From positions 1 to 64,000 of the forward strand of contig NZ_AYMQ01000116.1 of NCBI RefSeq assembly GCF_000633355.1: a stretch of 64,000 nucleotides of DNA, in the 5' to 3' direction. The stretch comes from Serratia sp. H1w (GTDB lineage: Bacteria > Pseudomonadota > Gammaproteobacteria > Enterobacterales > Enterobacteriaceae). Below the pieces are notes generated by a model. The model saw only the letters and a list, made by a program, of their open reading frames with translations, had not been told where the DNA came from and made no database searches. The position numbers and the translations under genes were made by a program. Positions 33,044 through 37,713 of the stretch are shown here, piece after piece (position 1 is the first letter of the stretch; each line of letters begins with the position of its first letter).

Positions 33044-34372
33044 TTATGGCGGCGTGGCTGTTTCATACACCAGACCGTCGCCATTACCCAATTTCGGGTA
33101 ATTATAATCGTGGGTGGGGAAGCGGAACAGGCGGTTACGCCAGCGGTCAAACTGCACGCGATAGTCATAGCTATCAGGCAGTTTTTTCATTCTGAACCAA
33201 TGCTGGCCGTCATCGGTAGACACGGTCATATGCAGCGGGTCGTTGAACTCTTTATTCATCATCAGCAGATGATTGCCCGCATAGAGCGTACCCAAGGTTT
33301 TTTTGCCGGTTTCCAACAGCGGTTGCAGCGTACCGTTTTCCTGCCAGCGATTCAGGCTATACAACTGCCGTGGGAGCTGGCGCAAAATTAAGTCAACCTC
33401 CCCCTGCGGGCTGATGTCGGCCGCAATAATCTCACCGTTGACCCACTGGCTGGCCTGAACTCGCGCAGACCTCAGATTGAAATCGAGCAGTAGTGAACCG
33501 GTTAACGATTCCTCTCCCCCAGTATTTTGGGGTTGGTTACTGACAATCACCCGATCGCCGCCGTTATAATACCAATTGGCCGCATAGAGGGCAGGATCGA
33601 TCCCGCGCTCTGTTAACAACCTTGGCAGATCGAATAGCGGTTGCCAATGCTGGCCGAGATCGTCTGATCGGTAGAGTTTTCCCTGTTGCACCAACAGCAC
33701 GCTCTGCGCCCCAACAAGGCCCAGGAGTTGAGATGTTTGATAATCCTCGGGTTCTCGCCATTGTGATAACCAGCGCCAGTGGCGTCCACCATCGGCCGAA
33801 TAAAATACGGCATCTTTGCTATATGAGCGGGTGCCGAACACAATCAGGCAATGCCCTTGCGCATCACACTGCTGCTCTGCCACGTACCCCAAAAAACGGG
33901 CGCTAACGCGCAGTTGGCCATTCTCTTCGATAATGACCTGGCTGACTGGGATCGTGGCACGCTCATCATAGCTCCGATTGCGGATGGTTCCACGGCCAAC
34001 CTTGGCCTCCAGTATCAAGCGAAGCAGGGTGGTATCAGGAGAGATCTGCAGGTTTAACAAGGGAGGCCCATGCTCAGCCAGCAAATCGATCTGCACCGTA
34101 TTGTCGTAGTGATAGATCAACGCATTCTGATCGCGCTCAATTTTGGTGTACTCGGTATGGATCGCATCGCTAGCGCCCGTGATAAGCACTCCCTGCTGAA
34201 AACTGCTCAGGCGCTGATTGTTCACCACCACCGCCGGAACCTCCGCCTGATAGGCTTGCCGCCACTGCCAATCGGGGGCAAGCCCGGCGAAGCCGTCGAA
34301 ATAAAACAGCATCCAGGAAGCAATGACTCCCAAGGTCAGCAGAGTAATGCGCGTTTGGCTTTTACTGAACAT
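33044..34372 (-). CDS. Membrane-anchored Asp-box (BNR) repeat protein, unknown function
   Basis: A 442-residue protein with an N-terminal signal-anchor helix (ITLLTLGVIASWMLFYF, about residues 9-25) and a large predicted extracytoplasmic domain. Three Asp-box motifs (S-x-D-x-G-x-x-W) are visible: YSADGGRHW, RSDDLGQHW and STDDGQHW. They suggest a beta-propeller as in sialidases and photosystem-assembly factors, but no sialidase catalytic Arg triad is evident. The stop of the next gene upstream overlaps its ATG by one base, so it is in the same operon as the two membrane-protein genes. The family is not recognised beyond the repeat. It could bind a ligand or a partner at the cell surface. Confidence 0.7.
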   Translation of the reverse strand: MFSKSQTRITLLTLGVIASWMLFYFDGFAGLAPDWQWRQAYQAEVPAVVVNNQRLSSFQQGVLITGASDAIHTEYTKIERDQNALIYHYDNTVQIDLLAEHGPPLLNLQISPDTTLLRLILEAKVGRGTIRNRSYDERATIPVSQVIIEENGQLRVSARFLGYVAEQQCDAQGHCLIVFGTRSYSKDAVFYSADGGRHWRWLSQWREPEDYQTSQLLGLVGAQSVLLVQQGKLYRSDDLGQHWQPLFDLPRLLTERGIDPALYAANWYYNGGDRVIVSNQPQNTGGEESLTGSLLLDFNLRSARVQASQWVNGEIIAADISPQGEVDLILRQLPRQLYSLNRWQENGTLQPLLETGKKTLGTLYAGNHLLMMNKEFNDPLHMTVSTDDGQHWFRMKKLPDSYDYRVQFDRWRNRLFRFPTHDYNYPKLGNGDGLVYETATPP

Positions 34373-35631
34373 TAGGGCACTTCCTGAATATAGGGCTTTA
34401 CACCGGTGCGTTGTTTAAACAGCACCAGCAACTGGCGGGCAAAGACAAACCGTGCCGCGCCAAGCGAGTTCCTGCGCGTAACCCAACAGCTGATTTCCAT
34501 CACCAGCATCAGCACACAGAAGATCATGATGCTCATCAAACCAAAGTCATAGAACATACCTGCGACATACTGCCAATCCCAGCGATCCGGCATGTCGCCC
34601 TGCTCCCACCAGTCATGGAGAGTGATAAACACCATCATCACCATGGGCAACGAGCAGCAGCCAAGGATCACTTTATACATCAGCTTGAGCTGGTGAAAAG
34701 AGACGGCCAGGCCGCCAAGTTTCAGATAGGCGCTACCATCCCTTTCGTTACACATACCCAGCACCGCATTATCTTGCTGATTGACCACCAGCATCACCGG
34801 GTCTTCGGCCGCCAGGAAAAAAGGATGCTGCCGATAGAACAACGGATCCAGACCTTCGGTCATCGAGTTAAACCCGCTGCGAAACAGGTATTTCACACCG
34901 TTACAGCTAAACTGGTATTCAACAAAATCCCGGCGGCTTTTGCCGCTGCCGGTAAAATCGCGGTGTGCACTGACATTGGCCGCCTCTCCGCTCACACTGG
35001 TCAGAGTCACCTTATCGGCCAGCAGAAAATCGCTCGGCTGGAGCGTATCGAGATCGTTATCCCGCTCATTGCTGGCTTGTAGTGAAGGTGCACCGCTCCC
35101 CGGCCCGGTTAACAACGCTGTGGCGGTGCGGCACATTGAGGTATCGCCTTGTTTGACGCTCTCCAGCCCTTGCAACAGCCTGCGCGTGTTACAGCTGATG
35201 CCAACCAGTAACCGATGAAACGACGCCACGAACCACCAGCAGCCGAAGGTGAACACCAAGAACATCAACAGCATGAACCAGATATTCGGCAACTGAAAAT
35301 AGCCCAACGCCGAGAGCACCAACACCAAGGTTGCGCCGGTCAGTTTCATCAGCGCGGCCGGTTTATCGATGTCGGCCAATGTCGGTTGCAGGTTGCCCTT
35401 TTCCGGTGACACCAGCCAGTGCAGCCAGTAACTGCCGTCGACCAGTTGATGGGCGCCGATAAATACCCGGTCCCCCGCTACCAGGCGGTTTAATACCTTG
35501 GCATCGGTAAACTGTTTACTGTAGGTATAGAACACCTTGTCCCCGGCCAAAATACGCCGCAACGTGCCTTCACTCGGCGCATTTTGATCGTGGCGAACAA
35601 AGGGCAGATCGTAGAAGCAGATTTTTTTCAT
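34372..35631 (-). CDS. Multi-pass membrane protein of unknown function, paralogue A
   Basis: A 419-residue protein with about four predicted transmembrane helices: a pair near residues 92-145 and a pair near residues 320-390. A soluble domain of about 170 residues lies between them. The first 80 residues (FYDLPFVRHDQ ... GDKVFYTYSKQF ... WLHWLVSPEKG) form a conserved N-terminal module. It is a clear paralogue of the gene at 36452-37654, with the same layout and the shared LLRRILAGDKVFYTYSxQF-type segment and ARQ-rich tail. No enzyme motif is seen. It overlaps the Asp-box gene by one base and lies 12 bases after the secreted-protein gene. Confidence 0.7.
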   Translation of the reverse strand: MKKICFYDLPFVRHDQNAPSEGTLRRILAGDKVFYTYSKQFTDAKVLNRLVAGDRVFIGAHQLVDGSYWLHWLVSPEKGNLQPTLADIDKPAALMKLTGATLVLVLSALGYFQLPNIWFMLLMFLVFTFGCWWFVASFHRLLVGISCNTRRLLQGLESVKQGDTSMCRTATALLTGPGSGAPSLQASNERDNDLDTLQPSDFLLADKVTLTSVSGEAANVSAHRDFTGSGKSRRDFVEYQFSCNGVKYLFRSGFNSMTEGLDPLFYRQHPFFLAAEDPVMLVVNQQDNAVLGMCNERDGSAYLKLGGLAVSFHQLKLMYKVILGCCSLPMVMMVFITLHDWWEQGDMPDRWDWQYVAGMFYDFGLMSIMIFCVLMLVMEISCWVTRRNSLGAARFVFARQLLVLFKQRTGVKPYIQEVP

Positions 35632-35643
35632 GACGGCTACGGA

Positions 35644-36393
35644 TTAAAAACGGTGATCGAGCAGCTTATCCTGTGCCACCGGATAAGCCTTACCATCGAA
35701 CTTGAGCTCGACGCGGGTTTTGGCAACGACTTTGCTGTTTTCCACGCAGTCCGCCCCTTTTTTGCTCGCTCCCTTGTGCGTCGCCAGGGTCTGTATCTGC
35801 AGATCCTGGAAACCATTATGCACCTGCTTACCAAGCGCCAATGCGCGATTGGTCAAGACAAAATCCCCCGCACACTGGCCATCCCACTCACCGCTATATT
35901 CATTCATGGTGAGATTATTGAGCACCAGCGATAATTGCTGCTCTTGCAGGGTATAGAGGTTAAGCCGTTCGATGTTGATGGGATTGACCGATGAAGATCC
36001 CCGGTGGTTAAAGCGCACCCCAAAAGCACGTAATTCTGGAGACAACTGGTAGCGCGCAGTGTCGATACTCACGCTACTGGTATAGATGGCATCATCCATA
36101 ATCGCTCTGGAATGATATTTGCTGGCCAGCACCTTGCCGCTCTGGCTATCGACCACGTAGACGGCAACGTCATAGTCGGTAAAATCGGGCTCGGCCTGTT
36201 CTTTAGCTTCCAGCATCAGTACCGCAATGGTTTTTTCCGGGGCGTAAGGCCACACCTTGCAGGTGGACAGCTCGGTATTCAAGGTAGTTTTGGCGGCGAA
36301 AGGCTTGGCCAATTCGCTCAGCAGCGGCTGACAATCTGCCAGCGCAGTGCAAGAAACCAAACCTAACCCCAATACAGCTATTACTCTTTTCAT
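35644..36393 (-). CDS. Secreted protein of unknown function
   Basis: A 249-residue protein with a clear signal peptide (MKRVIAVLGLGLVSCTALA, cleavage before DCQP at about residue 20) and no transmembrane helix afterwards, so it is probably periplasmic. It has three cysteines in the mature part and a high content of polar strands. I chose the ATG at 36393 because it starts the signal peptide; the frame extends to 36420 without homology. The 5' end closely resembles the relic at 37651-37713, showing that this gene once existed twice. It lies between the two membrane paralogues. Confidence 0.68.
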   Translation of the reverse strand: MKRVIAVLGLGLVSCTALADCQPLLSELAKPFAAKTTLNTELSTCKVWPYAPEKTIAVLMLEAKEQAEPDFTDYDVAVYVVDSQSGKVLASKYHSRAIMDDAIYTSSVSIDTARYQLSPELRAFGVRFNHRGSSSVNPINIERLNLYTLQEQQLSLVLNNLTMNEYSGEWDGQCAGDFVLTNRALALGKQVHNGFQDLQIQTLATHKGASKKGADCVENSKVVAKTRVELKFDGKAYPVAQDKLLDHRF

Positions 36394-36451
36394 CACTCGA
36401 TTCCCTGTCTGCAATTGCATTAATTTTTTTGTGTGTCCTGTGGATGAGGGC

Positions 36452-37654
36452 TCAGGTCACATCCTGTAAATAGGCCTGCTTGCCACCGCGGCGTTTGAAC
36501 AGCGCCAGTTTTTGCCGCGCCAAGACAAAACCCGCCGCGTCCAATGAGTCTCGGCGGGCTAACCACCCCGCCACCTCCAATAACAGCATCAGGCCGCAAC
36601 AAAACATCACGCCCAGCACACCAAGGGTTCCCAGCGTATCGGCAGCAGCGAGCCAGTCCCATTTATCCGGCACACCACCCTGATGCCACCAATCATTCAA
36701 GGTGAAACAGATCAGCAGCAGCATGAATAACAGCCAGCAAACGGCCAAGGTTTTATACAGCCATTCCAGGCGTTGCAGCGACACGGCCAAACCACTCGGC
36801 CGGTTGAGATAGGTACTGCCGTCGCGTCGATTGTAAATGCCGATCACGGCGTTGCTCGGGCGGGCAATCAACAGCGTCAACGGATCGTTGGCTGCCAGGA
36901 AAAAAGGGTGCTCCCGCAGCAGCAGCGGGTTAAGGTTTTCCTGCATGGGGTTCACGGCGGTGCGAAACGTTAACCTCCCGGCGCGACAGCTAAATTGATA
37001 GTCGATCACCTCACGCTGGTATTCACCTCTGCCAATAATCTCGCGTCTGGCACTCACGCGAGTCGCCATACTTGATACGTAAGCAAGGAGGGGGTCATCA
37101 GGCATCGGTTCATCATCGAACCGATCGGGAGGCGGTGTGCCAGAGGTTTGACAGAGGGTTACATCGCCATGCATGACTTGCTCAAACCCTTGTAGCGACT
37201 GGCGCGTCCTACGGGTAGCGTTCGTCGTCAATTGGCAGAATGCGCTAAAACAGCCCCATCCACCAAAGCATAACAGTAACGCCAGAATAGCCGCCATCCA
37301 GAGGCTGGAGAACCAGGAAAAACCATAGAGAGCCAGCGCAGACAACACAACGGAACCCACCATCTGCAAGATCAGCATGGAAGGATGACGTTCATCAGCC
37401 GCTTGCGGTTGCAGAGTGCCTTTTTGCTCACTCACCAGCCAGTGCAGCCAGTAGCTGTCGTCGTTCAACTGATGCGCACCAATATAGACACGATCCCCCG
37501 ATACCAATTTTTCCAGCACGCTGGCATCGGCAAACTGATCGCTGTAGGTGTAGAACACCTTATCCCCGGCCAGAATGCGCCGTAGCAGGCTTTCGCCAGT
37601 GGCGTTTTTATCGTGGTGAAGAAACAACAGATCGTGGCAGCCCATTCTTTTCAT
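36452..37654 (-). CDS. Multi-pass membrane protein of unknown function, paralogue B
   Basis: A 400-residue paralogue of the protein at 34372-35631. It shows the same N-terminal module (LLFLHHDKNAT ... GDKVFYTYSDQFADA ... YWLHWLVSEQKG), two helix pairs and a soluble middle domain. Its ATG overlaps the stop of a 20-codon relic of the secreted-protein gene in an ATGA, suggesting translational coupling. It is the first full gene of the cluster. No recognised family. The repeated secreted/membrane order implies that the two proteins work as a pair. Confidence 0.7.
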   Translation of the reverse strand: MKRMGCHDLLFLHHDKNATGESLLRRILAGDKVFYTYSDQFADASVLEKLVSGDRVYIGAHQLNDDSYWLHWLVSEQKGTLQPQAADERHPSMLILQMVGSVVLSALALYGFSWFSSLWMAAILALLLCFGGWGCFSAFCQLTTNATRRTRQSLQGFEQVMHGDVTLCQTSGTPPPDRFDDEPMPDDPLLAYVSSMATRVSARREIIGRGEYQREVIDYQFSCRAGRLTFRTAVNPMQENLNPLLLREHPFFLAANDPLTLLIARPSNAVIGIYNRRDGSTYLNRPSGLAVSLQRLEWLYKTLAVCWLLFMLLLICFTLNDWWHQGGVPDKWDWLAAADTLGTLGVLGVMFCCGLMLLLEVAGWLARRDSLDAAGFVLARQKLALFKRRGGKQAYLQDVT

Positions 37655-37713
37655 GGCTGATCATCGGGAGGACGCGAAGAGAAACAAACAAAACCACTGG
37701 TTACTTTTTTCAT
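37651..37713 (-). pseudogene. 5' relic of a second secreted-protein gene
   Basis: A 20-codon frame (MKKVTSGFVC ...) starts at an ATG whose surroundings match the start of the gene at 36393. Both read TTAATGCA, then ACAGGGA, then ATGAAAA-AGTAA at the same spacings. After about seven codons the similarity ends and the frame closes on the start codon of paralogue B. It looks like the stump left by deletion of a duplicated secreted-protein gene, now acting as a coupled leader. Confidence 0.6.

Follow-up and report, generated by a model that had tools for sequence, protein, structure and literature searches.

The window analysed here, a stretch of 64,000 nucleotides from Serratia sp. H1w (contig C116 of a 6.13 Mb genome), carries a run of four genes, named here MEMA, SECR, MEMB and ASPB in the order of transcription. 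The membrane protein MEMB and the Asp-box β-propeller protein ASPB represent two families, MEM and ASP, and the distribution of these families supports well that the unit which travels between genomes is the MEM-ASP pair. In the Serratia marcescens complex, the second half of MEM was replaced together with ASP. We tentatively read the pair as an orphan immunity complex against membrane-inserting effectors that rivals deliver through the type VI secretion system (T6SS). This reading, to which we give somewhat less than an even chance, is favoured because of a remote match of MEM to the family T6SS_Burk_ExIF, the switching second unit of MEM, the association with T6SS and the occurrence of MEM alone and in tandem.

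Profiles of MEM (A1) and ASP (A2) were run on 392 genomes of the GTDB family, both draws being apparently the same sample. ASP was found in 19 genomes, in 18 of which it is the gene that directly follows MEM, in the same orientation; among these pairs ASP is interrupted in G008 and G272, and MEM is in pieces in G303. The exception is G235 of the genus Morganella, in which an intact ASP follows a relic of the last MEM codons, and a named M. morganii record holds the same relic. MEM itself was found in 26 of the 392 genomes, eight of them without ASP. In a sample of 274 genomes of the class, MEM was detected only in the window and in G492, a member of another GTDB family, where ASP again lies directly behind. 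The pair behaves as accessory cassettes do, its flanks changing with the lineage: hupE and cobalamin genes, methyltransferase and major facilitator superfamily (MFS) genes, LysE and BOF, lytic transglycosylase, pyrophosphatase, MFS and GntR, or sigma-70 factor and mutS. Solo MEM genes neighbour tsx, tamB, a helicase, HlyIII or an M48 peptidase, according to Pfam and maps of open reading frames (ORFs). Among the literature matches listed, no title or abstract opening dealt with the MEM-ASP pair, which is no proof of absence.

Several further copies illustrate the range of arrangements. Klebsiella pneumoniae ATCC 13883 has two tandem MEM genes in the ppa-tamB region with no ASP behind (L065, 10001-12510), and Entomohabitans carries MEM with an interrupted ASP in the same region (L062). 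A second MEM copy of G641 (L149, 7456-8761) is split over two frames and lies downstream of an uncharacterised 352-aa ORF. The Morganella relics of the MEM C-terminus with intact ASP are located at about 8190-8290 in L147, which belongs to G235, and at about 3900-4001 in L151. In the genome-contig collection, the MEMA query gave 22 pattern matches, none of which was confirmed, and the A3 query gave 15 loci. Viral contigs yielded 88 pattern matches and no relative, and the K. pneumoniae MEM query found no match in the phage collection. Among plasmid records (PLSDB), MEMB and the MEM of L041 match the same two Klebsiella records and ASPB matches one Morganella record. Two plasmid-labelled records have chromosome-like neighbourhoods and may be pieces of chromosome: NZ_CP070536.1 (50.6 kb, the Morganella ASP site) and NZ_CP129856.1 (550 kb, linear, the Klebsiella ytfQ-ppa-tamB region).

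The AlphaFold2 model of MEMB has a mean predicted local distance difference test score (pLDDT) of 80.9 and contains two hairpins, built from four helices of membrane-spanning length, in regions that hydropathy also picks out. The protein is divided in the model as follows.

Unit 1: OB-like β domain (about residues 1-85) and helices 90-113 and 117-145 (AlphaFold2 model)
Linker: residues 173-195, pLDDT below 50
Unit 2: β domain (residues 210-304) and helices 312-344 and 350-388 (AlphaFold2 model)
Loop between transmembrane helices 3 and 4 (TM3-TM4 loop): DWWEQGDMPDRWDW

Residues 1-78 of MEMB match OB-type (oligonucleotide/oligosaccharide-binding) structures with Z of about 7 in VIA-align, a level that may mean a common arrangement only. 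Foldseek found no match for MEM at E ≤ 0.001 in the PDB or viral libraries, and three weak matches to PDB sequences (E ≥ 0.0036) were not meaningful. Both inter-helix loops of MEM are short, with one lysine or arginine between them, and positive charge is found on the opposite side; the topology predicted from this places the two ends and the two β domains in the cytoplasm. An internal duplication of MEM was considered and is unproven: the hhalign probability was 42-46% for the long halves and 1.7-1.8% for the β domains alone. The profile alignment of the halves pairs GD-x-V...DGS-x-W with a similar stretch.

The three Asp-box repeats described in the earlier note were recovered exactly: ASPB has S/T-x-D-x-G-x-x-W boxes at residues 192, 236 and 385 and no others, compared with a mean of 0.0065 over 20,000 shuffles. 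The ASPB model (mean pLDDT 75.6) comprises a helix and a propeller, and the three boxes together with this propeller-type model place the protein among Asp-box propellers; the Pfam scores are below the gathering cut-offs. The same note called the protein anchored. A helix at residues 5-29 of the model makes an N-terminal membrane anchor probable, while the low confidence of that helix (pLDDT of about 58-69 and lower) and its not being flagged in the hydropathy scan (set at a mean of 1.6 over 19 residues) speak for a more guarded wording. Structure prediction, which had been proposed as a check for these proteins, placed ASPB near Ycf48, the best Foldseek match by E-value (5oj3, 2.2e-8); in a ranking by Z, S9 peptidase propellers (17.5) precede Ycf48 (15.7). 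Sequence searches among solved structures likewise rank Ycf48 best, with sortilin-type propellers near. Cys169 and Cys175 of ASPB are conserved without exception in two alignments, of 12 and 11 sequences, and would fit a periplasmic disulphide.

The joint replacement was recognised in the S. marcescens complex (L063-L068, L048, L049 and L150), of which eight loci divide into two allele classes of two and six. Between the classes, 600 upstream bases and the first 188-193 MEM codons are 0.92-0.94 identical, and the rest of MEM is 0.64-0.66 identical in all 12 pairs. The χ2 of the identity switch is 195-260 between classes, as compared to 9-19 in three within-class pairs. For L068 against L064, the synonymous divergence (dS) is 0.22 over MEM codons 1-190 and 1.02 beyond, 0.69 in ASP and 0.29 in the upstream gene. 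The breakpoint, at codons 189-193, corresponds to the linker. Because identity and dS break at the linker and ASP changes jointly, unit 2 and ASP were replaced together, in this one complex. In one class ASP is followed by an additional 261-aa gene, at the point where homology to L063 and L064 ends; Pfam gave no match for the 236-aa inner form of this gene. Four other genera, with one or three pairs each, display no such sharp switch: g114 is at background level, g117 and g4 are somewhat diverged, and in g106 the whole pair is diverged (mostly 0.5-0.77 identical versus 0.78-0.92 in the flanks). A mirror-tree comparison of 18 pairs was tried as well, and the protein distances of both MEM halves follow those of ASP about equally well (r = 0.97 for the first and 0.96 for the second; 0.92 between the halves). 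Family-wide distances thus fail to single out the second half of MEM, and a special tie of this half to ASP rests on the S. marcescens switch and on the loop described below.

Comparison of 26 representative MEMs reveals a motif, [DG][KRY]W[DE]W, in the TM3-TM4 loop. It is present in 11 of 14 ASP-paired MEMs, in both MEMA-type proteins and in none of ten solo MEMs (Fisher p = 0.00015, in a test that ignores kinship). It is missing from three paired MEMs, namely two S. marcescens-type variants and the copy of G008, where ASP is interrupted. Of the ten solo rows, eight group with that G008 copy and hence are not independent; the solo MEMs of L035 and L045 fall among paired MEMs in the tree, with modest support, and have no motif, and the remote G492 has it. 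Since the motif tracks ASP pairing, the TM3-TM4 loop may be where ASP docks.

NF041560 (T6SS_Burk_ExIF) is the only profile that MEM resembled repeatedly. Twenty-two MEMs were scanned singly, in sets of 2, 10 and 10 with E-value limits of 1, 0.5 and 10, and the profile was reported for 11. The E-values are 1.9e-6 for L041 and L044, 6.9e-6 for L042 (these three being close kin), 4.8e-4 for L034, 1.1e-3 for L056, and 0.012-0.17 for L055, L148, L037, L036 and L038. Ten of the 11 matches are on unit 2 in one register: in nine MEMs, residues 261-277 to 361-385 align with profile positions 80-83 to 180-193, and L038 covers part of the register. Among 21 A1 members, NF041560 was reported for five at E ≤ 0.1. 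The best stretches span only about positions 80-193 of the 234-position profile. Because all scores are far under the cut-off, MEM is not filed as a member of NF041560. A search with this profile in 185 genomes of the class gave one match, a long histidine-kinase-like ORF, which was discarded.

The Xanthomonas oryzae proteins PXO_RS08595 and PXO_RS08605, assigned to the ExIF superfamily, neutralise the VasX_N effector PXO_00500 and the 92%-identical PXO_00498, and pull-down and competition data exist for the first pair (PMC12542774). A 2026 Salmonella paper presents another ExIF member as a candidate anti-eukaryotic effector by prediction (PMC13304343). VasX, acting from the periplasmic side, attacks the inner membrane, and TsiV2 confers protection against it (PMC3857813). 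We also note that NF041560 is named “putative type VI secretion system effector”, although the tested Xanthomonas members are immunity proteins (PMC12542774).

The association with T6SS was assessed by TssC in 29 MEM genomes, namely the 26 of the family and G001, G003 and G492. TssC is present in 28 of them and in 12 of 18 MEM-less genomes (Fisher p = 0.009), and by genus in 14 of 14 versus 8 of 14 (p = 0.016), with MEM-less controls hand-picked from the listed larger genomes and statistics that ignore kinship. G235, which has ASP without MEM, gave no TssC match. No VasX_N-type effector was recognised beside MEM in the ORF maps, not all flanks having been profile-scanned. Effector-immunity genes distant from T6SS clusters are known, Ssp4 within the ilv cluster being an example (PMC12669606).

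In the orphan immunity complex that we propose, MEM would lie in the inner membrane with its ends and β domains in the cytoplasm and two short hairpin loops in the periplasm, and ASP would be a propeller tethered in the periplasm and docked on the TM3-TM4 loop. Unit 2, the ExIF-like part, would block the toxin within the membrane. ASP might catch the toxin or widen specificity on the periplasmic side, a role at which we can only guess. MEMA is a second copy of the MEM core. MEM persists solo and in tandem, as immunity genes can; with MEM as the part that protects and ASP in an accessory role, a solo MEM would be harmless. Rather more doubtful is the broader proposal of a new two-component class of orphan immunity, in which MEM would be a membrane receptor made of two similar units, its second, ExIF-like unit and the periplasmic propeller would be exchanged together as a specificity cassette, and cells without the matching effector would thereby resist various membrane-piercing T6SS toxins.

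A number of observations weigh against the immunity proposal. The best NF041560 score is 27.8 bits (L041 and L044), far under the 90-bit cut-off; scans of MEMB, L054, L088 and a further eight MEMs did not report the profile, and the MEMA match (E = 0.27) aligns elsewhere. The match of ASP to Tli3 (PF24316) spans only about 17-45 residues, the best being 19.2 bits over 29 residues (L034) with a gathering cut-off of 27. The strict loop motif is missing from the S. marcescens-type paired MEMs, and the MEMA of G004 retains it, yet ASP was not found in G004. ASP outlives MEM in G235 and perhaps in G303. With regard to T6SS, the TssC controls were chosen by hand, G229 carries the pair and no TssC, and in the seven genomes for which MEM and TssC were located on one contig (G001, G004, G009, G125, G250, G272 and G637) the nearest TssC is at least 66 kb from MEM. 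None of the copies has a recognised effector or T6SS gene next to it, in flanks that were partly profile-scanned. Finally, we know of no two-part immunity complex of such build.

That no T6SS gene was recognised beside any copy is also in keeping with a serious rival, an inner-membrane receptor or assembly complex outside antagonism, in which the propeller would bind a ligand or client and MEM would relay to the cytoplasm through its OB-like domains. Ycf48, which binds a photosystem subunit, is the model for it. Ycf48 as the best match of ASP, with sortilin-type propellers near, the predicted cytoplasmic location of both soluble MEM domains and strong purifying selection (dN/dS of 0.04-0.36 in the MEM and ASP pairs compared) argue for this explanation. 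The SECR pairs compared have a dN/dS of 0.14-0.21, likewise well below 1. A patchy occurrence (26 of 392 genomes) at changing sites and the switching of alleles would be unusual for assembly factors, and the ExIF match is left unexplained. We hold the receptor or assembly complex to be possible but on balance doubtful.

It is improbable in our estimate that MEM is a T6SS-delivered membrane toxin with ASP as its periplasmic immunity protein. The gene order and overlap fit effector-immunity pairs, and the combination of a constant first half with a variable second half, the latter changing in step with the gene behind it, is reminiscent of polymorphic toxins. Tsi1, a periplasmic partial propeller, serves as an immunity protein (PMC3391265), NCBIfam calls the ExIF family an effector, and in G235, devoid of TssC, MEM is reduced to its C-terminal relic while ASP is intact. 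If MEM were the toxin and ASP the antidote, solo MEM should be lethal. ASP is missing from eight of the 26 MEM genomes and from extra MEM copies elsewhere, an arrangement that would amount to suicide. The two MEMs of K. pneumoniae ATCC 13883 have no ASP behind them, and the ExIF members tested are immunity proteins (PMC12542774).

The four genes of the cluster are intact ORFs on the minus strand, in the operon-like run that the earlier note had described, and were located together with two associated features as follows.

33044..34372, minus strand: ASPB, 442 aa, Asp-box β-propeller with a probable N-terminal anchor helix (residues 5-29)
34370..34374, minus strand: TAATG, one base common to the MEMB stop and the ASPB start
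34372..35631, minus strand: MEMB, 419-aa inner-membrane protein (AlphaFold2 model, hydropathy)
35644..36420, minus strand: SECR, secreted, PA3715 family (NF052451), 258 aa counted from the outer ATG
36452..37654, minus strand: MEMA, 400-aa paralogue of MEMB with the loop motif kept and no ASP gene directly behind
37652..37713, minus strand: relic of a SECR copy, 20 codons, overlapping the MEMA start by ATGA

The overlapping stop and start of MEMB and ASPB would be consistent with translational coupling, and for SECR the inner ATG at 36393 looks likelier than the outer one. Identity between MEMA and MEMB amounts to 48% over the whole length and 67% over MEMB residues 1-89, which bears out the paralogous four-helix proteins with a common N-terminal module of the earlier note. 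The G004 orthologue of MEMA is 77% identical to it, and MEMA belongs to a clade of two in the tree (support 100/100). On one side the cluster is flanked by a hupE-type gene, the counterpart of which in G004 matches Pfam HupE_UreJ, with a hypF-like gene beyond, and on the other side by cobalamin genes; hypF, cobC and pduX are names that we presume for these neighbours. No link of the cluster to the cobalamin or hydrogenase genes was found, as had been noted before.

No Pfam match above cut-off was obtained for any of the four window proteins. An anti-phage role was dropped as a candidate, since PADLOC models gave no support (two matches among eight proteins at E ≤ 1, with E of 0.058 and 0.14, and none for the four window proteins). 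A promoter scan was uninformative, with one promoter-like site versus 4.7 expected and 10 terminator-like sites versus 6.1. The GC content at third codon positions of the four genes, 0.61-0.68 against 0.68 (standard deviation 0.05) for 45 ORFs of the window, is not decisive for a foreign origin.

SECR has a single N-terminal hydrophobic stretch, in agreement with the one secreted protein reported earlier, and no match among solved structures. The earlier statement that no family beyond the repeats is recognisable holds for Pfam and not for SECR, which scores 224.4 bits (E = 8.9e-67; cut-off 70) across positions 2-196 of the 196-position curated profile NF052451. The same profile gave three positives including the window in the 274 class genomes, one of the three scoring under the cut-off and containing internal stops. 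In G486, SECR adjoins a pst-like cluster, its flanking genes being named on our assumption, and MEM and ASP are absent from the mapped stretch. Of the seven genomes of the genus, the window (G000) has all four genes, G001 has SECR, MEMB and ASP, G003 has MEMB and ASP, G004 has MEMA and SECR, G002 has SECR between a contig end on its upstream side and a downstream side that lacks the pair, and G005 and G006 have no MEM or SECR match (ASP by profile search in G000, G002, G004 and G005, and by ORF maps in G001 and G003). The four genes are separable, and SECR is an independent secreted protein at a shared site. That all four constitute one system with SECR as the secreted ligand of MEM and ASP is very improbable: the genes are co-directional, the SECR-MEM order is duplicated at the site and G001 has SECR-MEMB-ASP, whereas SECR is present at only 2 of 39 mapped loci (some being one place fetched twice), stands in G486 with neither partner nearby and is missing beside the MEMB-ASP of G003.

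The leader encoded by the relic at 37652-37713 resembles the SECR leader in L055. A SECR-MEM unit was probably duplicated locally and the first SECR then almost wholly deleted, and it is to this duplication that we trace the repeated secreted/membrane order, which had been taken for functional pairs. A functional pair does exist and consists of MEM and ASP, as the neighbourhoods of 18 of the 19 ASP genomes attest; MEM travels with the Asp-box gene, SECR is separable from both and the gene content varies over the seven genomes. The observation made in the earlier note is confirmed and its interpretation as a whole is partly supported.

If the immunity proposal is true, enterobacteria possess a module, so far without annotation, that makes them resistant to membrane-acting T6SS effectors and is represented in Serratia, Morganella and, as MEM alone, Klebsiella; the joint switch of unit 2 and ASP would point to its specificity surface, and the finding would bear on the “effector” name given to the ExIF family by NCBIfam. 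If it is wrong, the function of a conserved membrane-propeller pair is still to be found, a question that the predicted docking loop opens to testing.

Comparison with known systems reveals both shared and distinct features. SECR is by score a member of the PA3715 family, and in the sampled genomes outside this genus no tie of that family to MEM-ASP was seen. ASP has the Asp-box motif and the propeller fold in common with Ycf48 and the sortilin (VPS10) propellers; it differs from them in its tie to MEM, the probable membrane anchor and the two invariant cysteines, and the sequence match is short. MEM unit 2, from the end of the β domain through the last helix hairpin, aligns with T6SS_Burk_ExIF in one register in 10 of the 11 reporting MEMs, and the X. 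oryzae genes are duplicated, as MEM sometimes is. In contrast to the ExIF family, MEM has about 400 residues rather than the 234 positions of the profile, has ASP as a partner and is accompanied by no recognised VasX-type effector. The Tli3 profile matches a short Asp-box-like stretch of ASP only. Tsi1, a partial propeller, and Tli3, an outer-membrane lipoprotein, are periplasm-exposed β-sheet T6SS immunity proteins (PMC3391265 and PMC9860674), a build and location similar to those predicted for ASP; their partners are enzymes, whereas the partner of ASP is a membrane protein.

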